Below the pieces are notes generated by a model that saw only the letters and a list, made by a program, of their open reading frames with translations, ran no database searches and had not been told where the DNA came from. This document shows positions 6,683-35,804 of a stretch of DNA of 64,000 bases, piece after piece. The DNA lies in the IMG/VR virus record IMGVR_UViG_3300033553_000338, positions 1 to 64,000 of that record. The stretch is one strand, 5' to 3'. Positions within the stretch are counted from its first letter, which is position 1, and the number at the start of each line of letters is the position of its first letter. This DNA comes from a virus. Made by a program: the position numbers and the translations under genes.

Positions 6683-6718
6683 CAACTGATTTATCAAAAA
6701 TTTCTTAATTTATATCTT

Positions 6719-16100: not shown

Positions 16101-19100
16101 TTAGCAGTCAGTCACATTTTTATTCGTAGAATCCACACCGGTAGCGGAGTACCCTTTACCAGTCTTTCCCTTACTTTTATCCTTGTAATAGACCGGCTCC
16201 ACTCTAATAAAAATCTCACTTTGATCTTCTAGTGGCTTACTGCCAAATTCGTCACTGGATGGGAAAGCACTCTCACCATAGTTTTTATGGATCAGGTTCG
16301 ACCCCAGAAACGGGTTTCTTACTTCCACCTGGTCATAGCTAACAAGAAAATGGGTTTTGTAATCAACCACGACCGCACGGATAAAGACATGGTGTTTTAA
16401 GTTTGGATCAAACGTCTTGACCATTACAATTTCAAAATCTGTACCTGCAGGAAGGTCCATAAGCTGTTTGCTTAGGCCTTCATCATAAGCCATCCCCGCA
16501 CTTTGGTCTGCCTCTATTGCCTGACTTGGATCATCCTCAATAGCATTCTCTGCATTGTAGGCTCCACCATCCGGATCCTGCTGGTCACCTGCTTTCTTTA
16601 TTTTATCTTCCCGCTTTTTCTTCAGCCCGGACAGGTCAATAAACTTTTGGTCAATCCGTCTTAAAGGATCCTCATACAATGCTTTCATGCCCACTTCTTC
16701 CCACGGCAAGGTTTTAACCTTAGAGGAATCGTAATAGCGGATAACAATCAAAGACTGCTTTAACCGGTCCTGGATCTTTTTACCCTTTGCCCCTCCATTG
16801 GTATAGTCCTGATAGTAGCCCTTTCGGAACTCGTTCAGCCCCTCCTGTAGCTTCACAGGAACATACTTGCTGAAGGTAGCTGTGTACATGTTGCTGGATT
16901 GTTGGATCAGGTCATAGAAGAAAAGTGCTTTTTGTGTACCTTCTTCGAGTTTACGAAACCATCCCATCATCCTCATCTTCGTGTTATCTCCAACCTTTTC
17001 ATTAAAAGAAGACAGGTATTTCATCGGCTCAGATCCCATGGCCATCGTCTTGCTGTTTTGGACTACCGATGAGATAAATTCATTCTGGTAGAACTCTGAA
17101 TCAGGATCATCATATCCCTGCTTCATCGACTCTATCTTGGAATTCATACTTTTTGCAAACCGGTTAATCCCACTGAGAGTGGTAAAATCATGAGTGGTTC
17201 CTTTAAAAACACCACTATTGAATTGCACCCTTCCAAGTTTATGCAGGTATTGGTAATTGATATCGGTGTTCACAGCAAGCTCCGTCTGCTTGTAAACCTC
17301 TTCGTTCACCCCATCCTTCTGGATACCATCCTTGTCAGTCAGGATGTCCTCAACGACATGATAAACATTTAGCATCTCGTCTCTCACCAGGTAAGAGTTA
17401 TCATAGAAAGAGTTGACAAACTCCATGTAGTGAGGATTGTTATTCAGCACATTTAACACATTGATCTGGACGTTTGGAAGCCTTCCAAATGCTTTAATCA
17501 TGTCAGCTCTTTTCTCAGGACTCGCTTTCACAAACTCCTGCAGAGAGATTTTCTTACTGTTTGGACTTTCTGATAAGATATCTTTCAGGTATTTATTCAC
17601 ATCCTGGAAGTACTTAAACATCCCGTGAGCATCGTTATTCAAACCCTGGTTGATCTTCGCGATCTTGGCAACCGTCTGGAGTTCTTTAGTCAGGCCCGAA
17701 AGCTGGTACCAAAAATCCCTCATTGGCTTACTCAACCCACTATCCTTTTTAGACAAGTGGGAAGACAGTGACCCAAACAATCCCTCATCCACAATTTGTT
17801 TGGCTTTCCGAATTGCAGCCGGAGAAAGGACCAGCTTAAAGATCTCATCAATAGGGACTCCCAGCATGATCATCGTAGCGATGTCGTTACCGGTGGCCAG
17901 GTTCGTATTGATGTAACCCAGAATAAGTTCCTTCGCGTTATCCGTACTGGCATTGATCAGGCCGGCCATGAAGTCCCAGGAGTGAGTGCTCTTTGAAATA
18001 ACATCCAAATGCTTGGACATCGCTTTCATAACTGCCTCATCGGTGATATCTTCTGGTTTTACAAAGATTCCGCTTGCCTGAACAAAGCTTTCCGCATTCC
18101 GCTTAATATCTTGGTTATGCTTCTCACGCAGACCGTCAAAGAAACTGACAGGTGTCAAGTTTGCGATGTTTTTGAATGGGTCATTAATCCCAGGAACCTT
18201 AAGGCCCCTTGGAAGGTGTGGTTTTAACACACCATGGTTTTTCTTAAAGTCCAGCATATCTGTCTGGAAACTCAGTGATATCGCAGACATGGCCTTAGCG
18301 GAAGAAGCCATCACCCCAACCATCTTGTTACCCACCTTATTGATGGTACTCAGCTTCACAACGGAAACAGGGCTCAGCAGGGAGAATAATCTTCCAGGGG
18401 CACCCTTGTCCTCGTTGGCCATCGCTCTTTGCTTAATTCCTTCAAGCATCCGGGGATTAACCGGAGTATTGGACTCCTCAATGTTCCGGGAGTCACTGGA
18501 CACCTTCATGATGTTATCCACCATCAGGTTCTGAAGTCCGGCAGCATACCAGTCATATTTACGGTTTTGACGAATCTCATAAGCATGTTCGCGCTTTAAA
18601 TAATCCTTTGGCAGGTATTCCCGAATTTCAGCTTTTGTCAGTGGAACCGTACCAGGGATATTTTTTACAGGGACTGGATTACCCAGTTCATCCATGGACC
18701 ATCCAAAGTAGTCAAACAGAAATCCCTGATCATCCTGATCCTTAATCATTAGGTAACCGGAGTCAATATCGAAATCCTCTCCTTTAATCACCATCGCATC
18801 AACTGGGATACCTACAGCATTGTTTAATGACTCCATGAAACCAACTACACGAACGGCATTGAAGGAGTGTTTTCCTGAGGTAGGAATACGGGGTAGTACC
18901 CCTTCCAGTGACTTCGAAAAGTCCTTGTGGATCCTATAGTACTTTGTGTACACTTTATCTGCCTTACGCATCGCACGGAGTACGTCATAATCAGATTCCG
19001 TGAGGCCCTTGACCTTCTTAAAGTTAGCCTTGTCCTTAATCAGCTTCTTCAGGTAGACTTTACGTTCAATTGGAATATCCGCATTGTCCGGATCCCGGAG

Positions 19101-22100
19101 GTACATGGTATGTAAACTATCAGGCTCACCGGTAACTTTTACGCCCAGCTCACCACGCTTTACCTTGTTCTCTTTATACCTCTCGAAGAAAAAGTTTTCA
19201 TTCTCCAGAATTTCCTGGAGGTTATCCCCTACCCCTAAGTGGTATTTCTTTTTCATGATCGGAGGCAAGACAATCTCCGCAGCATGGTGCTTTATTTTAG
19301 ATTCCGGGTTATTCAGCATCCGATTGTAAACAGCCAAAGCATCCTTGTGAAGTGCTTTACCCTCAGGACTCTCATCTTTGTATAACCGTTCCATTGCCTT
19401 AAACGCAGCAGAATCGCGAACGGTCATTCCAGCAACCACAGGATCTCCAATTTTGTAGACATAGTAAGCTTCCCCGTCAATCTCCATCTCATTAACGATG
19501 ATCTCCGGGTTGCTTGCTATAAACTCCTGGAAGGCTGTGTTCAATGAACTGCCCATCTTTACAACAGCGAACCCACCGGCATTCATCACAGCAGCAAAGT
19601 TATTGATATACTTTTCAAGAACTTTCTTATCTGGATCCTTCACCAAAGACTTGCTGTCAGCAAAATAGGTCACGCTGTCTTTTGCAGCTTCCATAAATTT
19701 AACTGTTCCCAGTGCTTTAGGAAGCTTTGCAGAGTTTGTGGCTGTGTGGTAAGCAACACTGTTTGCAATTCCAGCAGCAACATCTGTGGCCCCTGAAACG
19801 TTAAGCTCCTCTGCCCTACTAACCCGATCTTCCAGTACAGCCATGCTGAACTTATCAGACACCGCAGTAGACCCTTCCAGGAACTCGTGAGTATTCCAAT
19901 GAAGGTTCCTCGAAGTAATTTTCTGAGCTGCCATCTCTTCGCTGGTTGAGTCCACTGTAAGCCCCTTACCCTTCACATATACCCCATCAGCAGCAATGTA
20001 TTTCTCCAGCTCTATCCTGTTCATCATCATTGGAGCTTTACCTGGCCGTGGAACTTCATACATCGTATAGATGTCAGCAACCGGAGTCAAGGTCATCTTA
20101 CCCCCATTCATCCGAAGACGGACCGTAGCCTTCTCCACGATAGTGTTCAATTTGGATACCACCCGCTTTGCGATGTCTGGGTCATCATAGCTCCAGTTAC
20201 CCTGTATAAGTTTCTCCATGAAGTTATCGTAATTGTCCTCACGGAACTCGGATAGAATCATATCATCCTTTACGGCCTGAGCAATGTTCCCTTCATAAAG
20301 CTCTTTGATCAGTTCCATATTGTGCTTGCTCAGGTACCTGATAGCAGTAAGCACAGCGGTAACCTCAGCGAAATTTCGCCCCTCATTTGAGATGGAGGAA
20401 GTAACCTGGGTAGGTGCGTTAAGAGAGTTTCGAGTATCCTCAAAGTTGTGGTTAGCACTTAGCTGAATACCTGAATCAACCAAGGATAATTGAGTTGTTT
20501 CAATCGGCATAGCGTATGCTATACCCCCATCAGTTTTAACTTCCTTCCCTATATCACTCAGTTTCCCGTTGGTCTTTCTACTCCCATTTTTTACGGAAGT
20601 ATTCACCACAAGCATGGAAGTGTGCTGATTTGCAATGGCAGGATTCTGATACTCAATCTCCAGAATATCTTTCCACAGGTGTTCGTAGTGCAGAGGATCC
20701 ATACGTCCCGAGGGACCCATTTCAGCAAACTCCTGCATCACTTCCCACATATTATTGAACTTCCTCCCTTCAATGACCTTTGATAGATCATGCTTGCTGG
20801 AGTACTCAATAAACGTAGGTTCTGGGAAGTTCCTGCTAAACATCCGTTTAAGGATGTTGTACATATCTGTTTTACCGTTCCCCCTGGAATTTAAGGCCAC
20901 CTCTGCTGTGATCTGGTGCATGGCCATCTTCACAACCTGGTTGATCCCCCGGGTATGGTCCCTATTGGTGATAAAGGATTTGATGATCTCAGAGGATAAA
21001 GAAGAAAAATCATTTCCGTAAGACTCACGCCATTTCAACACATCCAGCGGAGTGATAAAGATTGCCCCATCCATAGCTTCCTGAGCTTTAACAGCTCCCG
21101 ATCCCATCACACTTACATCGATCTCCACATCATCCGTGTAGATCACATTGACTTTTGCAGGGAGTTTTCTTGAGCCCATCAACATACCTGTGGGATTCCC
21201 TTTAATGTCAAAGGCGTTATATTCAGATGTATTGATTGGCCGGCCCAACTCATCAACATCAGCCAGAATAGGGTGACTGTACTCTGCAGTGTTACTCACA
21301 TTACGCTTACCCATAGTCAGGAAGCTGTTATGCATGATTTCTTTCCAGTCTAAGCTGTTTGTTTTCGCATCATAGTCAAAAATATTCCCCTGGGTCAGTG
21401 ACAATAAACTCTGGGTAGCCATTGCATTAGCATAGAAGAAAGCCTCTAATCCCGGGTTGATCTGGACCTCCTTGTTTTCCATGACTACAGAAATCTTACC
21501 TGTGGACCAGAGTCTGTCTTTTGGTTCCACATCAGCCTCGTAGCGTTCACTGATTATCTTGGAAGACTTATCATCCAGCTTAATTTTCATCTCTGATAAT
21601 TCCCGAAGGAATTCATGGAATTTTTGATCCAGTACTTTGGAGATCTCGCCCTCGTCTGTATTGATGTACAGCCACTCGGTCATCCCCGAATTAGCCTGGT
21701 ATCCTTTGTTGCGTTTAATGTAATCCCTGTTCTTAACCAGTCCGGATGATGCAAGTTCGCTATCTGTAAACTTGGCCTGGGTAAAAATCTGGTGGATACT
21801 GTTCTTTAAGAACATTGCTGACTTAATGTGCATCTTTTCTTTCCTCTCCGCTTTTAGAAAATCGCGAATAAGATCCCTGTCAGATTCTAAAATCCTAATG
21901 GCACTTTCAACAGGTATCCGCTTAGTCTCTGATAAATACTTTGCAGCCTTGCCGCGAGCAGCCAGGTATAGCGCGGATGACTTCTCATTACCACGTAGAT
22001 GCCATACAATGACAGCTTCGGCAAATACAGAAGCATCCATATCCAACAACATATCCTTGGCCTGGTTGGACATGGTGTTGTAATAGGTAGCCTTCAATGA

Positions 22101-24641
22101 TTTTTTATTTGTAGGCATCAAACCAGACTTCATCTCAATCTCCGCTGGCATGTAGGTCTTCTTATCGGAGGGTGTGAAGAATTCAAAGAAGGCACTTCTG
22201 AATTCTGATTCCCTGGCAGACTGGAAAAACATCGTCAGATTAAACAAGGTTCCCTCTTTATCCCCCAGATCCCAGTGAGACTTATCATCCACCTTATTTT
22301 TAACTCCAAACCCACGTAATGCCATAGTACCGGCCTTGGAGGTGAAAGGGTTATTCGCGTAAACAGTATGCTTCATCCACTTCTCAGCTCCGGACTTTGC
22401 TTCATGGAAAAGTGAAATCTTACTCTGTAACGCCGAGATGTGCCTTGGGATTTTGTGAAGGGCTGAAGCCTTGCCATCAGACATGACTTTCTCTCCCTTA
22501 TCGTTCAACGCATAGACGGTTGTATCCACATCGGTCAGATCATTGATGGCATCCTTGAAAGCCACCAGGTCATCCATCAAGGTATGTGGGGGCATAATCA
22601 CCTTTCTCTCCAGAAGCTTGATATTCTGAGAGTAATACTCATCCTTCTTTCCAAACTCTTTAAAATTGGCAACGTCAGGCTTTATCGCATTTTGTGCATT
22701 AAGGGTTGATATACGAATTGCCTGCCCAATAAAGTTGGTGATCCCGTCTATTGAATGCCGGGAGATGAAACTCTCGCTTAGATTCCTCATGTATGGGATG
22801 CCCAGCTCACGTAAGATTTTGTCAAGCTGTCCGGGATCCGCTTCCGTACCCGGTTTCAGCTTCCAGATTCCTGTCGTATCATCCTCTGTAGCCTTTACAT
22901 TGACCAATTCAATTGTATCCTGATTAGTCCCAAACCGTATCTTGATCTTACTAGAGCTATTAGTAGGAAGAGCAAACCTTAGTTTTTTATTGATAAACTT
23001 AGAAGTCAGTTCCTCAAGGGATGCCTGTAACATCCCCTTGGTCATGTTTGTACTGGACTTGACATTCAGGCTACCTCCCTCAACAGAAATCCATCGACTC
23101 CTTTCTGTGGTCATTAAATAGCTCGTGAAGTCGGTTAAGATGTCCTCAGCTATCCTTGACTCTACCGACTGGCTTTCAAAACGGTTCGTACCGGGTATTC
23201 TTTTTCTACCATCCGTGTACACTCGATATAAGGAGCGAACTTTTAATCCCGAATTGCTATTCAAAATGTACTCATCTGGGTTAAAGTACCTGTTGTAGAG
23301 TGCTATAAATTTGGGATCCTTATTAAGAGTTTTATTCGACTGATAGTAATGGGTGAATCTTCTGGCAATATGTCCTATTGTTGGATGAGTCTTCCCAATT
23401 GTCCGGGTATCAATGATCCGGTTGATGTAATTTTTAGTAAGCGGAGAAGAATTTAAAGTCTCGATGAAGTTACTTACTGATCTAACATCCGTAGAACGTT
23501 CCTGATCAAGCGTATTGGCCATGATGATCCTGGAAACCTTGTTGGTGGAATCGAAGGCAGAGATTGCAGACTCATTCTCCCAAGACTGTTTATGCTCCCC
23601 TTGTATTTTATCCTCACGCAAGCTGATCGTGCCCTCTGCATCAAACTCAATAGCCCCACCAAACAGAGTGTCATGATTTAGCATGGTCTCAAATACGGTG
23701 TACATCACATAGTTGATGTAGGTGTCATGGTAGCTGGAGTTGTTATTAAGGAAATTCTCCAGCTGGCCCCAGGTCATCTTGCTGATATCGGAATTTCCCA
23801 TCAACAATTCCCTGGCCTTAAGGTAATCGCGTTCCATCTCCTGTTTCAGGGCAGCTAAATTCTTAGGAAGATTGGACTTTAACGCTGGGGTACCATTCGC
23901 ATTTATAATGGCCCGGTGAAAAACATTTCTCTGGAAGTTGCTTAATGCCTTCTCCGCAATGTGCTGATTTCCAGGAAACAGGTTAATATTGATTTTCCCC
24001 CAGGTCATACCTTTCTGGCCCAGTGTAACTTGCTCCTTCAGCTTGTCCTGCTGTTTGCGGAGTTGAGTAGCTTTTAACTTGTCCAATTCATCCAATGCAA
24101 CCTGGATGGCAGGATCCTGGTCGGATTCGGCAGATTTAGCCTTATCTAAAAGACTCATGCTCCCTTCTTCAACCTCATCTGAATCATCAGATAGTGCATC
24201 TGAAATGTTGTCAGCAGATTCTTCAGGCTCTTTCAGGCCGGCAGACTCTTCCAAAAAATTGATTTTCATGGCCCCATGAAAGTCAAAGATACTTTCAGAA
24301 AGGTCAAACACCGGAAGATTACTATCTCCAAACTCCACCTTAGCAATCGTCTGGATCTTGGCTGAGATAGCTGTTCCTGTATTAAGGGACTCCATTACCC
24401 TGACAGCTATTGACTGAGCATCCGTAGTAACTCGACCTCTACTTTCCAATATCCCCGAAACAATGAACTTTAGTCGGGTCATATCCTCGTCCAACATCCC
24501 TTTGGTGTCTACATTACCCAGTTTGGTACGTATTGCATTGACTATCCCCAAAGCAGTGTTTGGAATATCACTAATATCCGCAGTCGTTACGGCAAATCGT
24601 ATGCCGTTTCGATGTTCGTCATAATTAAATTTACAGCTCAT
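16101..24641 (-). CDS. Virion RNA polymerase of the crAss-like type (2846 aa, DFDID motif)
   Basis: A single-chain, multi-subunit-type RNA polymerase related to the crAss-like virion polymerase (phi14:2 gp66 type) and YonO. The catalytic motif GEDFDIDSG (D1956, D1958, D1960) holds the magnesium ions. It is preceded by RIPTSGK (1918-1924), which corresponds to the RxPT loop of the beta-prime subunit. A lysine-rich stretch (LPPIMKKKYHLGVG) upstream may be the beta-like barrel, with lower certainty. In this phage group the enzyme is carried in the particle, enters the cell and transcribes early genes. At 2846 residues it is longer than the ~2180-residue phi14:2 enzyme, and its first ~1600 residues have no assigned domain. 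It is third in an operon starting at 35804 and begins 1 nt after the previous gene. Confidence 0.88.
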   Translation of the reverse strand: MSCKFNYDEHRNGIRFAVTTADISDIPNTALGIVNAIRTKLGNVDTKGMLDEDMTRLKFIVSGILESRGRVTTDAQSIAVRVMESLNTGTAISAKIQTIAKVEFGDSNLPVFDLSESIFDFHGAMKINFLEESAGLKEPEESADNISDALSDDSDEVEEGSMSLLDKAKSAESDQDPAIQVALDELDKLKATQLRKQQDKLKEQVTLGQKGMTWGKININLFPGNQHIAEKALSNFQRNVFHRAIINANGTPALKSNLPKNLAALKQEMERDYLKARELLMGNSDISKMTWGQLENFLNNNSSYHDTYINYVMYTVFETMLNHDTLFGGAIEFDAEGTISLREDKIQGEHKQSWENESAISAFDSTNKVSRIIMANTLDQERSTDVRSVSNFIETLNSSPLTKNYINRIIDTRTIGKTHPTIGHIARRFTHYYQSNKTLNKDPKFIALYNRYFNPDEYILNSNSGLKVRSLYRVYTDGRKRIPGTNRFESQSVESRIAEDILTDFTSYLMTTERSRWISVEGGSLNVKSSTNMTKGMLQASLEELTSKFINKKLRFALPTNSSSKIKIRFGTNQDTIELVNVKATEDDTTGIWKLKPGTEADPGQLDKILRELGIPYMRNLSESFISRHSIDGITNFIGQAIRISTLNAQNAIKPDVANFKEFGKKDEYYSQNIKLLERKVIMPPHTLMDDLVAFKDAINDLTDVDTTVYALNDKGEKVMSDGKASALHKIPRHISALQSKISLFHEAKSGAEKWMKHTVYANNPFTSKAGTMALRGFGVKNKVDDKSHWDLGDKEGTLFNLTMFFQSARESEFRSAFFEFFTPSDKKTYMPAEIEMKSGLMPTNKKSLKATYYNTMSNQAKDMLLDMDASVFAEAVIVWHLRGNEKSSALYLAARGKAAKYLSETKRIPVESAIRILESDRDLIRDFLKAERKEKMHIKSAMFLKNSIHQIFTQAKFTDSELASSGLVKNRDYIKRNKGYQANSGMTEWLYINTDEGEISKVLDQKFHEFLRELSEMKIKLDDKSSKIISERYEADVEPKDRLWSTGKISVVMENKEVQINPGLEAFFYANAMATQSLLSLTQGNIFDYDAKTNSLDWKEIMHNSFLTMGKRNVSNTAEYSHPILADVDELGRPINTSEYNAFDIKGNPTGMLMGSRKLPAKVNVIYTDDVEIDVSVMGSGAVKAQEAMDGAIFITPLDVLKWRESYGNDFSSLSSEIIKSFITNRDHTRGINQVVKMAMHQITAEVALNSRGNGKTDMYNILKRMFSRNFPEPTFIEYSSKHDLSKVIEGRKFNNMWEVMQEFAEMGPSGRMDPLHYEHLWKDILEIEYQNPAIANQHTSMLVVNTSVKNGSRKTNGKLSDIGKEVKTDGGIAYAMPIETTQLSLVDSGIQLSANHNFEDTRNSLNAPTQVTSSISNEGRNFAEVTAVLTAIRYLSKHNMELIKELYEGNIAQAVKDDMILSEFREDNYDNFMEKLIQGNWSYDDPDIAKRVVSKLNTIVEKATVRLRMNGGKMTLTPVADIYTMYEVPRPGKAPMMMNRIELEKYIAADGVYVKGKGLTVDSTSEEMAAQKITSRNLHWNTHEFLEGSTAVSDKFSMAVLEDRVSRAEELNVSGATDVAAGIANSVAYHTATNSAKLPKALGTVKFMEAAKDSVTYFADSKSLVKDPDKKVLEKYINNFAAVMNAGGFAVVKMGSSLNTAFQEFIASNPEIIVNEMEIDGEAYYVYKIGDPVVAGMTVRDSAAFKAMERLYKDESPEGKALHKDALAVYNRMLNNPESKIKHHAAEIVLPPIMKKKYHLGVGDNLQEILENENFFFERYKENKVKRGELGVKVTGEPDSLHTMYLRDPDNADIPIERKVYLKKLIKDKANFKKVKGLTESDYDVLRAMRKADKVYTKYYRIHKDFSKSLEGVLPRIPTSGKHSFNAVRVVGFMESLNNAVGIPVDAMVIKGEDFDIDSGYLMIKDQDDQGFLFDYFGWSMDELGNPVPVKNIPGTVPLTKAEIREYLPKDYLKREHAYEIRQNRKYDWYAAGLQNLMVDNIMKVSSDSRNIEESNTPVNPRMLEGIKQRAMANEDKGAPGRLFSLLSPVSVVKLSTINKVGNKMVGVMASSAKAMSAISLSFQTDMLDFKKNHGVLKPHLPRGLKVPGINDPFKNIANLTPVSFFDGLREKHNQDIKRNAESFVQASGIFVKPEDITDEAVMKAMSKHLDVISKSTHSWDFMAGLINASTDNAKELILGYINTNLATGNDIATMIMLGVPIDEIFKLVLSPAAIRKAKQIVDEGLFGSLSSHLSKKDSGLSKPMRDFWYQLSGLTKELQTVAKIAKINQGLNNDAHGMFKYFQDVNKYLKDILSESPNSKKISLQEFVKASPEKRADMIKAFGRLPNVQINVLNVLNNNPHYMEFVNSFYDNSYLVRDEMLNVYHVVEDILTDKDGIQKDGVNEEVYKQTELAVNTDINYQYLHKLGRVQFNSGVFKGTTHDFTTLSGINRFAKSMNSKIESMKQGYDDPDSEFYQNEFISSVVQNSKTMAMGSEPMKYLSSFNEKVGDNTKMRMMGWFRKLEEGTQKALFFYDLIQQSSNMYTATFSKYVPVKLQEGLNEFRKGYYQDYTNGGAKGKKIQDRLKQSLIVIRYYDSSKVKTLPWEEVGMKALYEDPLRRIDQKFIDLSGLKKKREDKIKKAGDQQDPDGGAYNAENAIEDDPSQAIEADQSAGMAYDEGLSKQLMDLPAGTDFEIVMVKTFDPNLKHHVFIRAVVVDYKTHFLVSYDQVEVRNPFLGSNLIHKNYGESAFPSSDEFGSKPLEDQSEIFIRVEPVYYKDKSKGKTGKGYSATGVDSTNKNVTDC

Positions 24642-24642
24642 A

Positions 24643-27600
24643 TTATATCTTGCAAATGTTATTTACTTTTTTATAATTTAAAATGATGTTTTCATACTTT
24701 TCAAGCCTTAAGGCATAGTCCAAGTTGTACGCATAGAGGTTATTAAAAGCAGTCTCAAATCTTTGCTCGTTCACCGCATCCATGATTGCTGGGTTACCGG
24801 CATTGTCTAATCCAAGTATCTTCATCGCGTAGTTGTTCAATATCCACTCCAGAGATAGTCCTACTTTCGGGGAATTAAAGAATTGTACCATGGCATCATC
24901 ACTAAGAAGGGTTTTCGACAATGACTTCAACTCTTTCTGCAAATCCTCAAAGGTGCCTAGCTTTTTGCCCTGCCCCGCTAGTTGCTTCAATCGGACTTCT
25001 TCTTTCATAATCTCCTCATCAATCCGGTTTAACTGTGCATCTGCGTAATTTAATACTGTAGAGCGTTCCATGGACAGGTCCATTTCAGTAACATGATTGT
25101 CAACTTTATCCCGTCCAATCCTTAGCTGATCCCTGTAACCCAATAGCCGATTTAACAGCCCACTGTCCTGAGACATATCCAGATTACTGCTTGTAGCCAA
25201 GGTGTGTAAATCCATAATAACCGCTTTCTGTGCTTTCATTAATTTGCTCTTTTCTGATTTAGTAATCTGCTCCGAGGCACTGTCCACAATCCTTTGAATA
25301 CCAGAGTCTGTGAAAACCACCGAAGGAGCTGTAACTGTATCATACGGGATTACTGCAACATCATCCAAGCTCAGTCCGGAACCTTCTAAACCTTTTACAG
25401 TGGAGACATCAATGGAAGCTTTCTTTTCGTGGGTAATCTTGCTTCCCGTATTCATTGGAAAGTTACCAAAAAATCCGCGATTATAGTTCAAATTATGAAC
25501 ATATTTCTCACCCTTCTTAATGACTGTGCCGTTAGCATCCTTTACATCCGGCTTAATCTTGTACTCATTGTCAAACCCTTTTTTAGGAATCTTCTTGAAC
25601 CACTGCCACATCTCGTCAAAGGTTTGTTTATCCTCTGACCGGAGTGTTTCCAGGAACTCAATGAATGCTGCTGGGTCAACATTATACCACTCTCCTTCTT
25701 TGGGTTTAGAAAACAGTTTTTTACCATTGCTTAATTTGTGATTTTTAATTTGGAAAAACATCTTCTCGACTTTTGTCTCTTTCCCTTCCTTAGAACGAAG
25801 TTCAGCAATCATATTATTACCGGCACGTAAGAAACGGTTAAGCTGGGAAGCACTTGCAAGAAAGCTGGCATATTTAGGGTCTGTCAGTTTATGGTAATCT
25901 TCAATAATCTCATCAAGAGACCTTGCCTTTTCACGGACAGGGACAAGCAAAACATCATCCGAAACTTTCGTCCAATCACCCTGTACTAAATCTTTTATAG
26001 TTTCATTCAATATTGTTTTAGCCTTATTGGGGGAAGCTACTAGATAAGCCTGACCTTTTTTCGCAACAGTGTTTCCATCTTCCCCGACAATGTTAGACGT
26101 AAGCACGTACACATCATCGGAGAAAGTCAATGGGGTTTTTGTACCATTGGGGCTATGTGAACGCATAAACTCTGAAAGAGTCACCCCTAGCTTTATTCCA
26201 GTATTCGTAAACCTCCCCTTTACGATTCGTTTGGAAGTACCATTCTTCATCGCTGAAGTAATATCCAGACCCTCCGTTGGGATGGATCCTTTTAAGCCGT
26301 TGATTCTGTCATATAGCTCAGCAATGTTCAGGTCAGGGTAATTTGTATCCATGTTCAGGATATTTCCATCCAAAGGCATAACAGAGTACACGATTGTAAA
26401 ATATTCCCCGGTTACTGAATCAGGAACAGTAGCCTCAATGTACAGGATCTCCCTACCATTATTTACATCCTCAATGGCATCCTTGCTAAAGATAGCTGCG
26501 CCAACTTCATTTTCAAGATTCTCTGCAACAAACCCTTTCTTTAGCCGAAAGGATACCTCGGATTCTTGTAATGCATTGGTTGCTTCCATTTTCAGCCTGT
26601 GAAAGTCTGCCAGAGTGAGCTTCCGGGTACTGTTTGGTGTAAGATCCACATTCAGCCACAGGTAGTTTAAAATCTCCCCATTGGATGCTGCGGTTAGTAA
26701 TTTGGTTTTTCGGGCCGACTTATCATCATTCTTAAACGTTCGGGTGATCTTACCCTGAGGTTTAGTGTCACCACCTCCCCCACTTTGATCCTTCTTCTTA
26801 GGAAGTGCAATTCGTACATATCCCGGTTTTACCAGATTTCCGGAAGCATCATAGATTGGGGATTTCATACTCTCAATAACCTCTTTTGTATCTGTTCCCG
26901 GGATCTTCTCTACACTGTAGTTCTTGGGGGATTTTGCATAGTCAGCCTCAATTTCCTTAGTCCCCTGTATAAATGCAAAGCCGGCATTCTTAAATTTCTC
27001 AAGCAGCTGGGCCAGGTGAGCTTTAATTTCAGCCTCAAACTTCACCTTGCTGAAGTCAATCTCGGAAATGTTATTGGCCAGGGTAATTAAAGACTCCGTA
27101 GCAAACACATCAATGTTGTTTTGATGAGTCATCCCAAGAAGTGAGTTAATCAAGTTTTTTGATTTCTCATCCACCCCTTCAACCAGTTTAAGCAGCAGGT
27201 CAAGGTGGGTCTTGTTAGCATCTTCAGCAATCACATTATAGTACATGGTCAGGAAGATTTTTTCCAAATCCGTCAAAGGGTCCATGTTCTCCATTTTTAC
27301 CATCGCGGAGTTAGCTAAATTATCCAGTCCCTTGGTGTGCATAAAGTAGATGGAATCTACCCCGGACCGGGTAGCAAATTCTATCTTTGCCTTTTCCAGA
27401 TCAGAAAGATCTGATTTACGTAACTCTTTATCAGCCTGAAGTTGGTTCCATTTTCTGTAGGCATCCTCGTTATTGCCATTACGCATGGCCCTTTCAATTT
27501 CATTGCGGATAATCCCCCCACTCTTTTTACCATGCTTGGTAATGATCTCACTTCGATCTTCCTCTGTAAGCAAGTTAAGTACGTGAAGATAATCCCCCTC

Positions 27601-30600
27601 AATGATTGGTTTGCCAGGTGCCCTGCGGACTTTAACCTTTGCTTTGAAATGGTCAGCCCCCAAAGAAGGGATAGAAACGACTTCCCCGTTAGCAGTTTTA
27701 ATAAATGCTTGGGAAACAACTTCCTCAATAATAACTTCACCGGCTTTCAGACTAGGATCTATCACCGGATCCCCATCAATGGCCATAGTATCTTTATCAA
27801 AAGTTACAGAGCTATCAAAGGAAGTCATCTTATAACCTGCCTTTTCAATGAGTGCCCTAACCGACTCTAGTGCAGGGGTAAGATAGCTGCTCAAATTAGT
27901 GTCCTGGGACGATCTATCCAAGGCTTCCAGTAGCTTAACACTAAGCTCATAGTACACATAGGAATCCATTGGTGACGAATCCATTAAGTACAGGATGTCC
28001 AATAAACTCTCCCGGGTACGGTCTACTGCTTCTCCGGAGAATTTACTAGCATCCTCCAGTTCCTTGATGGCATCATTCAGTATTTCTTTCTCAGTACGGA
28101 TGGCATCATTCAGTTTCATTGCCTCCACAAAGGCATCCTTGTCAAACAAGGTAGACAGGAACAGGCTGTTTTTGAAAGCAGCATCAATGGCATCAGAGAT
28201 ATCAGATGCACGAACCAATCCATCCAGCTTCTTCAATAAAAGATCAACTTCCTGGTCCATCATTCCACGGAATTTAGTGTGATCATCTCCTTCCCACTTG
28301 CTGTAGGCATCCATCACAATGGTATACAGCTCTTTATATTTGGTAAGCATATCGGGCTTGATAGTAACCTTAATGTCACCCCCGGTAGCAAGCTCCTTAC
28401 CCGTCAAAGACTTTTCAAGGTCACTTAAAACCTTTCGAATCTCAACTCCCTTTTTCTTGTAGGTGTCAAAAACTTTAGAATTTAATTTAGCCTCCACGTT
28501 AGGGACAATGCCTGGTATGGTTACAATCTTCCACCCGGTAGCTTTCTTGATCAGGATCCCCTTCTGAGCCCTGGATACGGCTGTATAAAACAGCTGGGTC
28601 ATGATGTTGTTTCTCTCCACATGTTGCATGGTATTCAGGTGGGGAATATCCACAATAACCTGGTCGAATTCCTGGCTCTGTGCATCGTGTACTGACATAA
28701 CCGGGATACCAAACTCTTCAAGAGCCGCATACGCTTCCGCATCCTCCTCTTTGGTTACGGTGGTAACAATAACAATCCGATTCTTATTCTTCTTTTCATC
28801 CGCATGATCCACAGCCAAAGCACGTTTAATACGCCCTTTAACCATAGCATTCCAGTCATCAGCATCAGTTGCAATTTGAACACCAATATCCTGAGATATC
28901 CCATCAACTTTCTTAACCTCGTAAGTCAGAGTAACATCCTTTTGCTCTTCGGCCATGTTTTTAGTGGTCTCAATAGCCTCCCGGATTGTTTCGAATAATT
29001 GGGTGTTGGATAAATAACCTGTTCGCTGAGAGGACCTGATAATCGGGGTCATCTCAATACCTGAAAGCTTATCAATCCCGTTGGTCATGATGGTGTTATA
29101 GTTGTTCCCCTTCATGGTTATGCTGGATGCCTGTAAAGGATCACCCAAGCCTAAGATACGTATATCACTGCCTTCATTGTTTTTGTTGAACTCCCGAACA
29201 GCATCAGCCAACCGGCTAACTTCCGAAGCTGGAAACCGGGTAATCTCATCAATAATAATGAGGTCGCTGTTAACGATGGATTCATCTGACCCATTCAACA
29301 GCCCAATAAGGGTCTCGATATCAAGATCACCATCATCATTAGTTGGGGTTTCCTTAGGGACTATACCTGTATCCTTCAGCCCCTTTACCAAAGTCTCTGC
29401 CTGAGATTTACCAGGAGCCAACAATACAACATCTCCGGAACCTTTCATCATCTTAACTACCGCAGCGATGTAAGTTGTTTTCCCAGCTCCCCCAATTCCT
29501 CGTACATATCCCAATTCAGGGATAAAGTTCTGAGCTGAATTTTCTTTAATTTCTTTATCTGACAACCCGGCAGTATCCCCAAAATGTTGAGCCTGATCGA
29601 ATCGGCTCAGCCAGTTCAAGGTATACTTACCTTTTGTACCCAGATACTCCACACTTGGCTCCAAGGGACTTGTGAGCTTCACGGCCATTTGAATGACTGC
29701 ACGGCTCTGCTCGTATGTTGGTGAGCTAGTAAAAGTTAACCTGGCAACATCCTGTTCAAATGATTGCTGAACAGTTGCAAACGATTCACGCGACATCATC
29801 AGGTAGTAGGCGTACAGTACCCGGGTGTTTTCAGAAAGCATCCTGGACTCAAACTTACCCAGGTTGATCTTCATTTTGTCTTCCTCAGAAAGGGTCATCA
29901 GATAGATATGGAGCATTAACTCCACCTCTTTGATTGCAGCCCACTTCTCGGTGACATTATCCTGGTTCGTTCCATCAATATCCCTGAATTTAGTCAAGGC
30001 ATCCAACAGAGCTGTTTTAGTTTCCGAAATATCGCTTGCGGGAAAGATAAAGGTAGTAATCAATTCTTCCAGCATATCACCAGTGCTTTCCATCTTGGCC
30101 ATATCATTAAGATACACTCCACGGATGGACTCCCCTTTGTTTCTGTACAAAGTATTGATCAAGAAATCCAGTACATGTCCATCCAACAAGGTGTCATTGG
30201 AGTGTGCGCTGAAAGCCTTGGCCACGTATGTAAGAGATTCATTTACTTTCGACTCCAAAGTCTTGGCTTCCTCTTCTGAAGTACTTGGATCATACATCTT
30301 GTAAAGGCTATCAGTAGCATCGTCTGAGATGATCGTCTCAATCTTATTTTTGAATTCAAACTTATCCTTGTTGACAGCCTGGAATTTATGAAGTTGAGGC
30401 TCAATGCTTAAAATACTGCGTATGAACTCTTTACGGTCAGACATCACTTTTCGTATCCGTTCTAAGTTCTCCATATCCCCATCGTAACTCTCGGGACCTG
30501 CGGTATTAAGGGCAATCACTTCCTCCTTAATCTGTGAATGGATATACTTACCCCCTTTCCGGTCGTAGTCCAGATAGGCTTTCATAGCTCTCTGTGATGG

Positions 30601-33600
30601 ATCCAGATCATGATCCCAGGAGATTAATTGAATTACTGTGTTCATCGCACTCATCCGGTCACTTCCAACCGACTTAATTAGAGATTCCTTTTTCGGAGCA
30701 TCTACTGTGTCGTTGAGGTGTTTGGCCAGCTCAGTTGAGTAGAGAATATTTCCCTTCTCCTCTTCTACTTTCTTGATAAACTCAATCAGTTCATCGGAAT
30801 CGGTAATCTGCAAAGCCTCATCGTGACGTTGACGGGATGCCTCACTGATTTCATTGAATTTGAAGTTGTAGTGGGCAAAGTCTGCCACTTTAGTGATGGC
30901 TTTATCGGTAGCATCGATAGCTTCCTGAAGTCCCTCAACATCTGAGGATTTCAAAAATTCAGAGGCCTCAACAAACTCATCACTGTTAGGATCATAAATC
31001 CCATCAGGTCCTTGTGGGAGAGCATAGTTAAGACTAATCGTCCTAAGGTCAGCTAATTTACGGCCAGGCTTTTTTAAATCCCGAATTACCCTGGCAAAAG
31101 CGTCATCTAAAATTCTCTGCCCCTCTGATCCTGGTTCAATATTCTGAGTTATCTCAATGTTAGTTTTTATTTCCTGCATGCCGGCCAGGAATGCCTGTTT
31201 AATCTCTTCGCTTACCGGAGCATTTTTTAAGGATTCCAATATCCTCTTCTTATCCTCTTCCCTAAGGTCTGGGAGTTTGTCATTCAAGATCCTTAATTGC
31301 CTCTCTTCGGGGGTCATATTCTCCAGCTCGTCCACGTAGTTTGCGGAAATCTTACGGATGCTTGATTCCTTGACATCTTCTTCCTGGAAAAACTTAACCT
31401 CTTCCATCATCTCCTTACGCATGGCTTTCCATACACTGTAACTGATATAGTCTGCATCCCCCTTCTTGGAAATACGACCATCTGAATGTTTATTGGCATC
31501 CTGAAAAAGCTCAAACAATGCCTTCTCGTAGTATTCATTGGCAGACTTACCCTGAACAATGTCACGTACCTTTTCAGAGGCAGCTTCCATTTTATCCTTG
31601 ATAGTCTTAATTTTCTCCTTGAGTTCTTTCTTCGTTCCCTCTGGAGTTGACTTATCGTCCACCTGTCGCTGCAGCTCCTCAACATTGGCATCTTCCTTCA
31701 CAATGTAAGAGATGTGGTTGGCCATATCGTCCAAAGCATCTGTCATCTGCACGGTTAACTGATCTCCAAAGGCTTCCTGGGTTTTACCAGACCAGATCTC
31801 TGCCATGGCTTCCTTAATTTCCTTAGGACTCTTATCCTTAAACTCTGGAAGGTCCTCAACGGCACGTTTCATTTGCTCATCCGAATGCAGTTTAATATTC
31901 TCCCACAGGGTTTTAAAGGCATACTCATTGGAATCTGCCTGAGATACACGTAATACCTCATCGGTAGAGCTTGAATCAACTGGTCGGTACTTACCCCTTT
32001 CATCACGGGCATAGGAAAGCTTCTCACTTCCGAAGGCTCCCTTAGGTTTTTTAGCGATCATAACATCAATGATATTGCGCTCCTCAGCTGTATTTGAGGC
32101 TTTTACCATTGTTTTTATGTAATTGTCCGAAGTAATGCGGGTAACTTTTTTACCCATGTTTTGATTCAGGAGTGATTTACCAATACCACCACCGACAGAA
32201 CCCATCGCACCGGCAAATATTGCTTCTTTTGCAAATTCGCTGAAGTCATGTTCCGCAAACCTTCCGTCACCAACTTCTTTTCCTTTTCCCAAGGTGGCGT
32301 TGTACATCCATTTAAGGCCGTACTCTTCTGCAGTTTCAACAGTTTCCTCAAGCCCCTCTGACATCATAGCTCCCAGGTATGCTTTCACCCCAGTGGATCC
32401 TGCAGATTGGTAAATGTCAGAAACTTTTTCTCGCATAGAATTAAAAGTAGTAGCCATCAGGCCACCTTCCTTAGCTGCTTTTTCCGGGGTAATATTCTTA
32501 ACTCCTTGTCCCGTAAGTCTCTTTATGTGGGACTTAAACAGATTTGCTTTAATCTGCTGATCGAAAGTCTCAGGGTAAGGTTTGATAATGTTCTCGGTAA
32601 GCTTAGAGGCAAACCCGTACATCAGGGCAGAAAAAGAGGCATGCATGATTAAGGCATCCCGGTCGGATAACCCGCTTTCCTTAGCTTCCCTGGCAAAATC
32701 CTCGGTAGCCATCATACTCATCGACCCACGGCCCATAAAGGAGCTGATACTACTAACCATTTTCTTTTGGGCTGCGGAGACTGTTTTATCAGCATAGTAC
32801 GATTCGAAAGCTTTAGTAAATCTCTTTCGACCTAACTCACCTGCCAATTTGGAAGACCGTAATCCCAGTATAGACGGTACAATTTTGGTAACGGCTTGCA
32901 TACCTAGCAGCTGTGGAACGATATCTCCAATGCTGTTGGTCATGTTATTCAGGTTCCACATACTCTGCCTGGACCGTTCATCCATTTCAAAGGAGTACCG
33001 TTTCAGGTAGTTCTGAGTCATGTTCATGGAACGCATGAAAGAAGAGTCCTTGTCAGCTCCCATGGCAGATCCAATAGATTTGCCAAGCTCTGCAGTTCCG
33101 GAGATTGCTGAAGATATAAATGTTGCAATTGCAGTATAAGGAATCACTTTAGGAATCTGTCTCGCGGCTACACTGAAAAATCCCTGGTCCACCTTATTAC
33201 CATCGAGGAACCCAAAGTTTTTGGCCAGGGCTCCTGAATTGAAAATGGTCACGATATCATCAGTACTATGGATAGTCTCCCCACCATCAACACGTTGGAT
33301 GAAAGGGTTACCATCAACAGTCAGCTTAGGCATCCCTTCCTCATCCCTGGCTACTCGCCATAGGTCAGAAGTCATCATCTGCTCAAAGGTGCCCGGGGCA
33401 TCTTCAAATTTCCCGTCCTTAAGCTCTCCCATGGCCAGGGCAACTTGCTTGTTGGTCTTGGTACGTACACGCTCACCAAATAAGGTAGATGAATCCATAG
33501 AGGCAAAAGAGCCCTCAACAAGGTTCGCGATATTGATCTCTCCCAGGTACTTCTCTCTAAAGACACTCTCCAGGTAGTCCCCATCGGTGTCAGAGATAAA

Positions 33601-33939
33601 AGCCTTAGCTCCCAGAACATCATGATCAACCGTTTCCCGAACGCTGTTTATCAAGTGTAGCTTGTCGTAGAAATTGTCAAAATCCTCCTTACCTTCAAAT
33701 TTCTCTTTGATGTTGTCAATTTTCCAGTAATCTTCCCGGTTACGGAGACTGAAATCGACTCCCTGATTCTCCGTCAGATCATACGCTTGGTCGAAGCTCA
33801 TTCCTTTGAATTCGCTGGGATCGTCACTTGCACTAAATATCAGGCCCAGTAAGTCCGGGGCATTTGACTCAACTTCTATCTTTTTTCCAAGATCCACTTC
33901 CTGGGAAGAGTAATCCTTCATTGCTTCGTTATCGCCCAT
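24643..33939 (-). CDS. Giant virion-type protein containing an SF1 helicase (3098 aa)
   Basis: Residues ~1470-1800 contain a complete superfamily 1 helicase of the RecD/Pif1/Dda style: GIGGAGKTT (motif I, near residue 1480), LLAPGKSQAETL (Ia), IIIDEITRF (II, near 1560), GDPLQ (III), RSSQRTG (IV), VHDAQSQEFDQVIVD (V) and YTAVSRAQKG (VI, near 1783). All key residues are present, so it should bind and hydrolyse ATP and move on DNA. The first ~600 residues include hydrophobic and Gly/Ala-rich helices (YTAIATFISSAISG, AIFAGAMGSVGGGIGKS) that might insert into a membrane. The regions either side of the helicase are long and helical. It overlaps the previous gene by one base and directly precedes the virion polymerase gene, so both are made from one message. 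Confidence 0.82.
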   Translation of the reverse strand: MGDNEAMKDYSSQEVDLGKKIEVESNAPDLLGLIFSASDDPSEFKGMSFDQAYDLTENQGVDFSLRNREDYWKIDNIKEKFEGKEDFDNFYDKLHLINSVRETVDHDVLGAKAFISDTDGDYLESVFREKYLGEINIANLVEGSFASMDSSTLFGERVRTKTNKQVALAMGELKDGKFEDAPGTFEQMMTSDLWRVARDEEGMPKLTVDGNPFIQRVDGGETIHSTDDIVTIFNSGALAKNFGFLDGNKVDQGFFSVAARQIPKVIPYTAIATFISSAISGTAELGKSIGSAMGADKDSSFMRSMNMTQNYLKRYSFEMDERSRQSMWNLNNMTNSIGDIVPQLLGMQAVTKIVPSILGLRSSKLAGELGRKRFTKAFESYYADKTVSAAQKKMVSSISSFMGRGSMSMMATEDFAREAKESGLSDRDALIMHASFSALMYGFASKLTENIIKPYPETFDQQIKANLFKSHIKRLTGQGVKNITPEKAAKEGGLMATTFNSMREKVSDIYQSAGSTGVKAYLGAMMSEGLEETVETAEEYGLKWMYNATLGKGKEVGDGRFAEHDFSEFAKEAIFAGAMGSVGGGIGKSLLNQNMGKKVTRITSDNYIKTMVKASNTAEERNIIDVMIAKKPKGAFGSEKLSYARDERGKYRPVDSSSTDEVLRVSQADSNEYAFKTLWENIKLHSDEQMKRAVEDLPEFKDKSPKEIKEAMAEIWSGKTQEAFGDQLTVQMTDALDDMANHISYIVKEDANVEELQRQVDDKSTPEGTKKELKEKIKTIKDKMEAASEKVRDIVQGKSANEYYEKALFELFQDANKHSDGRISKKGDADYISYSVWKAMRKEMMEEVKFFQEEDVKESSIRKISANYVDELENMTPEERQLRILNDKLPDLREEDKKRILESLKNAPVSEEIKQAFLAGMQEIKTNIEITQNIEPGSEGQRILDDAFARVIRDLKKPGRKLADLRTISLNYALPQGPDGIYDPNSDEFVEASEFLKSSDVEGLQEAIDATDKAITKVADFAHYNFKFNEISEASRQRHDEALQITDSDELIEFIKKVEEEKGNILYSTELAKHLNDTVDAPKKESLIKSVGSDRMSAMNTVIQLISWDHDLDPSQRAMKAYLDYDRKGGKYIHSQIKEEVIALNTAGPESYDGDMENLERIRKVMSDRKEFIRSILSIEPQLHKFQAVNKDKFEFKNKIETIISDDATDSLYKMYDPSTSEEEAKTLESKVNESLTYVAKAFSAHSNDTLLDGHVLDFLINTLYRNKGESIRGVYLNDMAKMESTGDMLEELITTFIFPASDISETKTALLDALTKFRDIDGTNQDNVTEKWAAIKEVELMLHIYLMTLSEEDKMKINLGKFESRMLSENTRVLYAYYLMMSRESFATVQQSFEQDVARLTFTSSPTYEQSRAVIQMAVKLTSPLEPSVEYLGTKGKYTLNWLSRFDQAQHFGDTAGLSDKEIKENSAQNFIPELGYVRGIGGAGKTTYIAAVVKMMKGSGDVVLLAPGKSQAETLVKGLKDTGIVPKETPTNDDGDLDIETLIGLLNGSDESIVNSDLIIIDEITRFPASEVSRLADAVREFNKNNEGSDIRILGLGDPLQASSITMKGNNYNTIMTNGIDKLSGIEMTPIIRSSQRTGYLSNTQLFETIREAIETTKNMAEEQKDVTLTYEVKKVDGISQDIGVQIATDADDWNAMVKGRIKRALAVDHADEKKNKNRIVIVTTVTKEEDAEAYAALEEFGIPVMSVHDAQSQEFDQVIVDIPHLNTMQHVERNNIMTQLFYTAVSRAQKGILIKKATGWKIVTIPGIVPNVEAKLNSKVFDTYKKKGVEIRKVLSDLEKSLTGKELATGGDIKVTIKPDMLTKYKELYTIVMDAYSKWEGDDHTKFRGMMDQEVDLLLKKLDGLVRASDISDAIDAAFKNSLFLSTLFDKDAFVEAMKLNDAIRTEKEILNDAIKELEDASKFSGEAVDRTRESLLDILYLMDSSPMDSYVYYELSVKLLEALDRSSQDTNLSSYLTPALESVRALIEKAGYKMTSFDSSVTFDKDTMAIDGDPVIDPSLKAGEVIIEEVVSQAFIKTANGEVVSIPSLGADHFKAKVKVRRAPGKPIIEGDYLHVLNLLTEEDRSEIITKHGKKSGGIIRNEIERAMRNGNNEDAYRKWNQLQADKELRKSDLSDLEKAKIEFATRSGVDSIYFMHTKGLDNLANSAMVKMENMDPLTDLEKIFLTMYYNVIAEDANKTHLDLLLKLVEGVDEKSKNLINSLLGMTHQNNIDVFATESLITLANNISEIDFSKVKFEAEIKAHLAQLLEKFKNAGFAFIQGTKEIEADYAKSPKNYSVEKIPGTDTKEVIESMKSPIYDASGNLVKPGYVRIALPKKKDQSGGGGDTKPQGKITRTFKNDDKSARKTKLLTAASNGEILNYLWLNVDLTPNSTRKLTLADFHRLKMEATNALQESEVSFRLKKGFVAENLENEVGAAIFSKDAIEDVNNGREILYIEATVPDSVTGEYFTIVYSVMPLDGNILNMDTNYPDLNIAELYDRINGLKGSIPTEGLDITSAMKNGTSKRIVKGRFTNTGIKLGVTLSEFMRSHSPNGTKTPLTFSDDVYVLTSNIVGEDGNTVAKKGQAYLVASPNKAKTILNETIKDLVQGDWTKVSDDVLLVPVREKARSLDEIIEDYHKLTDPKYASFLASASQLNRFLRAGNNMIAELRSKEGKETKVEKMFFQIKNHKLSNGKKLFSKPKEGEWYNVDPAAFIEFLETLRSEDKQTFDEMWQWFKKIPKKGFDNEYKIKPDVKDANGTVIKKGEKYVHNLNYNRGFFGNFPMNTGSKITHEKKASIDVSTVKGLEGSGLSLDDVAVIPYDTVTAPSVVFTDSGIQRIVDSASEQITKSEKSKLMKAQKAVIMDLHTLATSSNLDMSQDSGLLNRLLGYRDQLRIGRDKVDNHVTEMDLSMERSTVLNYADAQLNRIDEEIMKEEVRLKQLAGQGKKLGTFEDLQKELKSLSKTLLSDDAMVQFFNSPKVGLSLEWILNNYAMKILGLDNAGNPAIMDAVNEQRFETAFNNLYAYNLDYALRLEKYENIILNYKKVNNICKI

Positions 33940-35804
33940 TATAAGTTTGTTAAATCTTTGAATGTTAGTAATTTACCGCTAGACCGGTTAATGTTTAATC
34001 TGCCACCTTGCTCCTTACTCTTCATGTACAGGTTTCCGGTAATTGCCTTCTTGATTGGGTAGTTGTCGTTGAGGGGAACGATGATTTTGGTTCGGAACCA
34101 TTGATCAACCTCGCTTTTCGCGTTGTATCCTGTTTTTCTGTAAAGATCTTCCAGTTCCGACTTATCTGTTACAGCACTTGCTCCTGCCTCTGTCATCAAT
34201 TTTTTATCGTCTTGACCAATCCAAGCATCATCAGTAGGAAGAAACCCTGCATAAACAATGGCAGGTTTAAAGGTTGTATCGTTCCCAAAAATTAAAAACT
34301 CTTCGGCAAGCTTTACAAGCTGGTCCTTAAATACGTTAGGGTCATATTTATCAGCATCGTCAACCATCGACTTTTTAGCCTCTTCCAGGAGCTCACCTTT
34401 TCTTTTATTGTAGTCAACAATGTCCTTACCCTCTTTAGTAATCTCAGTCATCACCTGTCCCTTTGAGTTTACAGGTACCATAGTGAGAAGTGCTTGTTCT
34501 GGTATCATTCTACTGACAATGGCATGAACGTTACCCCCAAAATCCCCTGCTGATTTACCCTGAATTCGGGCACCTTCAAACACCAGGGATGAGCTCACTT
34601 TCGAAGATCCTATAGGAGTCAGTTGATCACCATTCTTGTATGCACCTGGCTCTACCTGAGTTCCTATAAGTCCTTTAAGGTCACCTGAAGTATATGCGTG
34701 TCCTTTATCCCCCAACACATCAAGGGCTGACTCATCGGTCAACTCTCCCTCTATACTCGTGGAATGGCTCTCCTTGGCCCTTTCTGCAATTAACCCATAG
34801 ATGGATTTAGTCATCTCGCTATCCAACGCTTTTTGGAAGGCTTCTTTATCTACAAAATCAATTCCTTCAATCTTTCTCATTGCAGCATTACGCAGATGCA
34901 TTTTTGACGCGGCACTGAGTCCCAGATTTGTTCCCAGCAATCGATGAATCGCAGCCTTAAGATTCTCCGCATCAGAAGAATCCTGGGTTCCCTTGGTTTC
35001 TTCCACCAGCCTGTCCGGATCCCAACCAGCGGTAACCAGTAAACTAGCCAGATTTGTATTTCGGAGAAAATCAAACGTGGTTTCTTTTTTACCCTCAGTG
35101 GTACTTCCCACTTGTTTCAGCTGAGTGTCAATCTCATCCATCACTTTGGTCTCGCCATTGACTGCACCGGTAATCTGCTTAAGGTAAATGCCGTTCTTGC
35201 TACCCATTCCGGTATAAGGGGAATCCTTACTGGTATGGATATATTGCAGTGCCTGGGAGTTAGATATTAAGGAATACTTTCCGGTACCTTTAGCCCTGTC
35301 TTGGTTGTACTCAAAGGGAGTGATCTCCTTAAATTGTCCCGTAGCATTATCAATAGCCACCAGGTTTGAGGAAGTCAAGTCTGTAACAAATTCTTTCTCA
35401 GACCCGTTAGTTCCAACCCTTGTCTCCGCAGCATTCGCTAATTCTTTACTCACCTTCAACTCATTGGGTGCGCGGTACAGGATACTTTGAAGCTTGCTCA
35501 AAGCAGCAATACCGTCATGGGTCTCTATCCAGAACCGGTCAGTTAATGTCTTCTCCTTTATCTGATTTTGAAGTTTAAGCACCTCATCGATAACTGCGTT
35601 CCTCTCCCCCATCAAGCCATCAGCCTTTATCAATTGATCCATATCAATCTCGGGGATCTGAACTTCTTCCTGGGGGTTTAATACATCTGACAGGTCAGCA
35701 TAAGGATTATCCTTTGGAGCAACCTGATTCTCTTTCCATTTGATTGGGAGAGCTTCTTGAACGGCCCCACCTTCCTGAAATTTCTTAACACCTATGTAAT
35801 CCAT
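33939..35804 (-). CDS. Putative virion protein (621 aa), first gene of the polymerase/helicase operon
   Basis: No known domain is recognised. The N-terminus carries KKFQEGGAV, a short double-glycine motif that also occurs in several neighbouring proteins. The rest is a soluble alpha/beta protein with a long helical stretch (residues ~60-110) and a basic C-terminus (SKEQGGRLNINRSSGK). It is the first gene after the promoter motif at 35827-35837 and overlaps the helicase gene by one base, so it is made together with the helicase and the polymerase. A role in packaging or delivering them is an inference from this context. Confidence 0.6.
   Translation of the reverse strand: MDYIGVKKFQEGGAVQEALPIKWKENQVAPKDNPYADLSDVLNPQEEVQIPEIDMDQLIKADGLMGERNAVIDEVLKLQNQIKEKTLTDRFWIETHDGIAALSKLQSILYRAPNELKVSKELANAAETRVGTNGSEKEFVTDLTSSNLVAIDNATGQFKEITPFEYNQDRAKGTGKYSLISNSQALQYIHTSKDSPYTGMGSKNGIYLKQITGAVNGETKVMDEIDTQLKQVGSTTEGKKETTFDFLRNTNLASLLVTAGWDPDRLVEETKGTQDSSDAENLKAAIHRLLGTNLGLSAASKMHLRNAAMRKIEGIDFVDKEAFQKALDSEMTKSIYGLIAERAKESHSTSIEGELTDESALDVLGDKGHAYTSGDLKGLIGTQVEPGAYKNGDQLTPIGSSKVSSSLVFEGARIQGKSAGDFGGNVHAIVSRMIPEQALLTMVPVNSKGQVMTEITKEGKDIVDYNKRKGELLEEAKKSMVDDADKYDPNVFKDQLVKLAEEFLIFGNDTTFKPAIVYAGFLPTDDAWIGQDDKKLMTEAGASAVTDKSELEDLYRKTGYNAKSEVDQWFRTKIIVPLNDNYPIKKAITGNLYMKSKEQGGRLNINRSSGKLLTFKDLTNL

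Follow-up and report, generated by a model that had tools for sequence, protein, structure and literature searches.

In a lineage of crAss-like phages, an SF1 helicase domain is embedded in a giant protein that is encoded beside, or fused to, the virion RNA polymerase (vRNAP). The fold class of the domain, its conserved catalytic residues, and its conserved placement beside or fused to the polymerase are directly supported. The reading favored here, held with somewhat more than even confidence, is that the domain would be a co-packaged and co-ejected SF1 motor that serves the vRNAP in DNA entry and early transcription, both its virion location and its function being predicted.

None of the components is new: crassviruses were known to have a transcription block and giant cargo proteins, and SF1 helicases are familiar as well. 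A pairing of helicase and vRNAP is not described in the portions of the literature text that could be searched, and the transcription-block domain figure of Yutin et al. 2021 may show it. The word "helicase" is absent from the text of the PhicrAss001 atlas (PMC10172136), and in the accessible part of the 2021 genome survey an SF1 helicase is named only in the legend of a marker-gene figure. The pairing touches on how a crAss-like vRNAP gains access to duplex DNA that is still entering and on the role of the giant companion proteins. A conserved and apparently independently repeated pairing gives one companion protein a testable enzymatic role, and an SF1 helicase together with a virion polymerase suggests a two-motor machine for entry and transcription.

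The phage and its giant genes

The window (the whole 64,000-nucleotide stretch that was analysed) is the first 64 kb of an IMG/VR virus record of 157,880 bases. Judged from its muzzle protein, its crAss-type major capsid protein (MCP), and a DxDxD vRNAP in a giant ORF, it is a deeply diverged crAss-like phage (Crassvirales). The best relatives of its MCP are those of MT835470 (at 36.5%) and MT835492 (at 28.9%). TerL was not found in the record with PF03237. The main genes are as follows.

12137-16063, minus strand: 1308-aa ORF after the polymerase, in the position of phi14:2 gp076
16101-24641, minus strand: vRNAP ORF, 2846 aa, with DFDID at residues 1956-1960 (18762-18776)
24643-33939, minus strand: 3098-aa ORF (standard code) that encloses the helicase domain
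33939-35804, minus strand: 621-aa ORF that opens the closely packed gene run, in the position of phi14:2 gp079 (593 aa)
42233-49123, minus strand: muzzle protein (PF25731, 4.5e-19), which marks the window as crAss-like

The vRNAP ORF matches the PhicrAss001 polymerase gp50 around DFDID (1e-4). The helicase ORF is separated from the polymerase ORF by a 1-nt gap (TAA-T-ATG), and the stop of the 621-aa gene overlaps the start of the helicase ORF (TAATG). Both junctions fit a single message, so that an earlier claim, made from the sequence alone, that the helicase protein comes from the same message as the virion polymerase is plausible, in a weaker form than it was stated. No match to PhicrAss001 gp45/gp46 was found for the 621-aa family by profile comparison or for the 1313-aa family by single comparisons.

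An SF1 helicase in the middle of the 3098-aa protein

At 28563-29510 the sequence-only reading had recognised a full SF1 helicase in which motifs I, Ia, II, III, IV, V, and VI follow one another in order. The helicase is indeed there, but on the minus strand, where the interval encodes residues 1477-1792 of the 3098-aa ORF; the plus strand is noncoding. All of these motifs are present, and a Q motif is found as well. Since the Q motif lies outside that interval, the domain is better placed at about 28495-29757. All features are on the minus strand.

28495-29757, minus strand: SF1 helicase domain including the Q motif, residues ~1395-1815
29707-29721, minus strand: Q motif PTYEQ, residues 1407-1411 (P1407, Q1411)
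29473-29499, minus strand: motif I / Walker A GIGGAGKTT, residues 1481-1489 (K1487)
29398-29424, minus strand: motif Ia LLAPGKSQA, residues 1506-1514
29239-29262, minus strand: motif II / Walker B LIIIDEIT, residues 1560-1567 (D1564, E1565)
29131-29157, minus strand: motif III ILGLGDPLQ, residues 1595-1603 (Q1603)
29023-29031, minus strand: motif IV SQR, residues 1637-1639 (R1639)
28648-28707, minus strand: motif V within IPVMSVHDAQSQEFDQVIVD, residues 1745-1764
28549-28590, minus strand: motif VI FYTAVSRAQKGILI, including FYTAVSRAQKG at residues 1784-1794 (R1790)

A Pfam search of the 3098-aa protein matched AAA_30 (E 7.6e-11, residues 1478-1641), Viral_helicase1 (E 1.7e-8), UvrD_C_2 (E 3.8e-6, residues 1747-1794), and the related family AAA_19. 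Beyond the helicase it gave nothing of weight, and divergent domains could escape Pfam. These E-values, together with catalytic residues that are invariant in 24 diverged homologues, put the helicase match far beyond chance. The embedded domain is thus predicted to be a catalytically intact SF1 helicase/translocase, with ATPase activity expected from the conserved residues. A further claim, that the protein begins with hydrophobic helices, was not supported. In a 19-residue Kyte-Doolittle scan no TM-like segment was seen in the protein; the best mean was 1.33 (residue 340). Because no position reaches 1.6, N-terminal helices would be at most amphipathic.

Profile and structure searches agree on the fold. 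A 17-domain profile searched against the PDB matched MERS nsp13 (1.2e-12) and, across the whole core, UPF1/NAM7 (3.4e-11), and also RecD, Sen1, and Pif1. The AlphaFold2 model of the window's own domain was poor (pLDDT 47.7, pTM 0.49), and Foldseek with this model still found helicases (nsp13 at 7.4e-6, SLFN11, RecD2, Pif1, and UPF1). An orthologue (L134) modeled better (pLDDT 77.3, pTM 0.76), and its model matched SF1 helicases over both RecA-like lobes in Foldseek and in VIA-align, where SF1 ranked top. Z-scores were 19.4 for DSH9, 18.1 for UvrD, 17.4 for SLFN11, 17.1 for Dda, 16.9 for RecD2, 16.2 for HelD, and 15.9 for nsp13. In other words, the structure searches returned SF1 helicases and not a non-helicase P-loop fold, the contrary outcome that had been named in advance.

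To which class of SF1 does the domain belong? The PDB profile search favors SF1B (UPF1, nsp13, RecD, Pif1), while the structural ranking mixes UvrD with SF1B enzymes within ~1-2 Z. Going by sequence, the domain is most likely SF1B, with 5'-to-3' polarity, although the SF1A enzyme UvrD also fits the structure well. The domain does not match the full NCBIfam RecD/RecD2 models.

Conservation in related phages

With the window's domain as a single query, neither a tblastn search of 50,697 phage records nor a scan of IMG/VR gave a match. Relatives were gathered through alignments, together with two capsid-matching GenBank records (MT835470 and MT835492). A capsid-protein alignment retrieved 47 IMG/VR contigs, of which 38 were searched with a four-row helicase profile. 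The profile matched 23 of the 38; among the 23 contigs of at least 75 kb, 19 carried the helicase at E 3.4e-8 or better, and the two GenBank phages were matched as well. With this profile, three long related contigs (G022, G037, G038) gave no helicase match and a fourth (G009) only a weak one.

Homologous domains are only ~16-30% identical to that of the window. Nevertheless, all 24 sequences compared keep the Q-motif Q, the Walker A G and K, the DE of motif II, GDxxQ, the R of motif IV, and the T and R of motif VI. The surroundings of the helicase were read in 20 stretches (19 profile-search records plus G001). The usual order is an ORF of ~580-650 aa, an ORF of ~2700-3350 aa with the helicase near its middle, and then the polymerase ORF. 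Downstream of the helicase, a D[FY]D[IV]D motif was seen in 11 of these 20 stretches and also in the fused ORF described below; elsewhere the sequence that was read stops too early, the polymerase gene is split, or the motif deviates. The same gene block (L114-L133) occurs under three genetic codes: 11 (standard), 15 (TAG sense), and 4 (TGA sense).

MT835470 has the helicase in a 2967-aa ORF, at residues ~1498-1850. In MT835492, with TAG read as sense, the helicase-bearing protein is split (1542 + 1556 aa); the domain is close to the beginning of the second half, and this half-ORF adjoins a DYDID polymerase ORF. The gene is split in other contigs too (330 + 2404 aa in G013/G015, 1540 + 1550 aa in G036). 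In MT835492 (14922-24196) and G036 (2071-11328) the helicase protein consists of two overlapping ORFs of ~1540 + 1550 aa. The second half-ORF starts ~130-150 residues before Walker A, which turns the helicase into an N-terminal module. As for polymerase genes, that of MT835470 is split (2275 + 983 aa) by ~1 kb at 7942-9003, which may be an intron, and has no intact D[FY]D[IV]D.

An embedded helicase was sought without success in PhicrAss001, phi14:2, cr55_1, cr10_1, cr60_1, cr115_1, crAss002, Bohxovirus, and DAC15. Likewise, a profile search with all HMMER filters off found no hidden helicase in gp47, gp078, or gp32. The embedded helicase is thus a feature of a lineage, not a crAss universal.

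Fusions of helicase and polymerase

In three IMG/VR contigs, G001 among them, which may be one virus from sister samples, the helicase and a DFDVD polymerase share one 5046-aa frame. A second kind of fusion is found in Cohcovirus hiberniae cr50_1, whose 4774-aa protein QOR58058.1 (labeled "DNA helicase" in GenBank) has DFDID at 3154 and a helicase from ~4249 to near the C-terminus. Like the fused members of the window's lineage, this protein physically joins an SF1 helicase to a crAss-like vRNAP. Unlike them, its helicase is Dda-like, lies C-terminal of the polymerase, and groups with replication-type helicases. The window phage and several relatives carry a separate helicase of 420-500 aa elsewhere in the genome, a type that many crAss-like phages have. 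In a tree, 21 embedded helicases fall on one side of a 100/100 branch, while the Cohcovirus helicase groups with the separate helicases (455-506 aa) of these phages. Because of long branches, only the 100/100 split was taken from the tree. Going by this split and by the position of the helicase at different ends of the polymerase, the joining of a helicase and a crAss polymerase seems to have happened at least twice independently. Conserved adjacency and two kinds of fusion strengthen the link to the virion polymerase that was first proposed from the window alone.

Evidence for a proposed virion protein

In phi14:2, gp079 (593 aa), gp078 (1797 aa), gp077 (2180 aa, DFDID), and gp076 (1421 aa) lie in the same order on one strand and are all annotated as structural from MS/MS. 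In PhicrAss001, gp47, gp49, and gp50 are cargo detected by MS (PMC10172136). The helicase ORF sits between a ~600-aa protein and the vRNAP gene, as in phi14:2, and the 3098-aa ORF is the positional counterpart of phi14:2 gp078 and PhicrAss001 gp47. PhicrAss001 differs from the window and phi14:2 in that its polymerase genes are on the other strand. The blocks gp45-gp50 of PhicrAss001 and gp076-gp079 of phi14:2 resemble that of the window in gene order, giant sizes, an adjacent DFDID polymerase and, for some members, distant N-terminal homology; their counterparts have no helicase, whereas the window's lineage keeps an intact and conserved one.

The N-terminus of the fused protein (L005) matches gp078 (4.5e-9) and gp47 (3e-5 to 3e-4), and the protein upstream of it matches gp079 (3e-4). 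An N-terminal profile of the clade matched crAss002 gp32 (1.8e-5), with no match among controls and none to gp47 or gp078. No direct sequence homology to gp47 or gp078 was detected for the window's own N-terminus. A match of the N-terminus to a gp47 profile (E 4.5e-14) was discounted as circular, one phage having contributed to both the query and the profile; without the shared phage only crAss002 gp32 remained. The proposal of a virion-type protein is thus supported indirectly, by distant homology and by a gene order that resembles the one seen for the MS-detected virion genes of phi14:2. Helicase homology and synteny carry the step from gp47/gp078 to the protein of the window, and from them we infer its presence in the virion and its ejection.

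How might the motor act?

The conserved catalytic residues, the conserved placement, and the repeated fusion point to an ATP-driven motor serving an injected polymerase. In the proposed mechanism, an SF1 motor is built into a cargo protein that accompanies the crAss-like vRNAP. The helicase protein would be made with the polymerase, packaged, and then ejected together with it. ATP-driven movement on the phage DNA, or on a nascent hybrid, would let the polymerase open, enter, or clear the template during entry and early transcription. Template opening or clearance is the first candidate step, pulling DNA in the second, and recycling or R-loop removal the third. A need for help would not be unprecedented, as the N4 vRNAP is inactive in vitro on native N4 DNA (PMC12633501). 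The counterparts in PhicrAss001, phi14:2, and crAss002 show that crAss vRNAPs can work without a helicase. The same arrangement in relatives and one fused lineage suggests that some phages bring their own unwinding motor with the polymerase.

Helicases bound to RNA polymerases have precedents. The SF1 motors HelD and PcrA/UvrD act on RNA polymerase (PMC7749160, PMC8318588), but these are unfused host factors and not virion cargo, and the nsp13 helicase is bound to the coronavirus polymerase (PMC7675986). The SF1B enzymes nsp13, UPF1, RecD2, Pif1, and Dda share the motif set and the two-lobed fold and are free-standing or part of other complexes. Giant injected polymerases at the DNA entry point are known from N4-like vRNAP and from the tail-tape-fused vRNAP of P23-45 (PMC12633501, PMC10770324); the word "helicase" is absent from both texts. 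A broader proposal stands at about even chances. In it, phages of this lineage would package and inject their own polymerase together with a dedicated SF1 helicase motor as one transcription machine, the pairing would have arisen at least twice independently in crAss-like phages, and the motor would open or clear the genome for the polymerase as it enters.

Other readings are less probable. The strongest of them, though still unlikely, holds that the helicase is an ATP-driven translocase pulling phage DNA through the ejection channel, with co-packaging as its only tie to the polymerase. Its location in a predicted ejected cargo protein fits this, and for vRNAPs fused to large proteins a coupling of transcription to DNA translocation has been proposed (PMC10770324). 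However, relatives enter without a helicase, and polymerase fusion in two different arrangements points to transcription and against a pure entry motor. SF1 enzymes mostly track single strands, which also counts against it. A lower probability is given to an injected conflict or host-takeover effector of the polyvalent type, which would shield incoming DNA or attack the host and be unrelated to transcription. Polyvalent proteins are giant, multidomain, and delivered with DNA, and can bear helicases, mostly SWI2/SNF2 and rarely UvrD-like SF1 (PMC5512222). In the 3098-aa protein, on the other hand, the helicase is the only domain recognised; Pfam found nothing else of the polyvalent set, such as a methylase, a protease, or an ART, and the constant partner of the helicase protein is the polymerase.

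It is more doubtful still that this helicase works in replication or repair, sits in the late block by chance, and acts after early transcription. Crass-like phages often have an SF1 helicase among their replication genes, but the window phage and several relatives already have a separate one, and in the tree the embedded domains are a clade apart. Least probable is a P-loop domain that has degenerated or is structural and lacks helicase activity. The low identity among members and the low-confidence model of the window's domain would allow it, yet all catalytic motifs are invariant across very diverged sequences, and the orthologue model is a two-lobed SF1 fold with Z up to 19.4. A motor that would serve the injected polymerase stays the preferred reading.

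Other genes of the window

The muzzle protein has 2296 aa against a 1371-aa scale for PhicrAss001 gp44, and it must therefore contain large insertions. A DUF192 (COG1430) protein (40309-40935, minus strand, 9.6e-20) is encoded within the virion gene block, with a phrog_6056-like internal virion protein on one side and cargo genes on the other. At the end of the block, a 1474-aa ORF (7713-12137, minus strand) weakly resembles phage exonuclease families at its N-terminus (phrog_298, 3.8e-6), as if the cargo block held a nuclease too. The interval 5515-7582 holds a thymidylate synthase gene and, adjoining it on the opposite strand, a free-standing NUMOD4/HNH endonuclease gene. Finally, a 1091-aa protein (60396-63671, minus strand) that likely serves host recognition contains a carbohydrate-binding domain of F5/8 type C (2.4e-6) and is encoded beside a tail-fibre-like gene.
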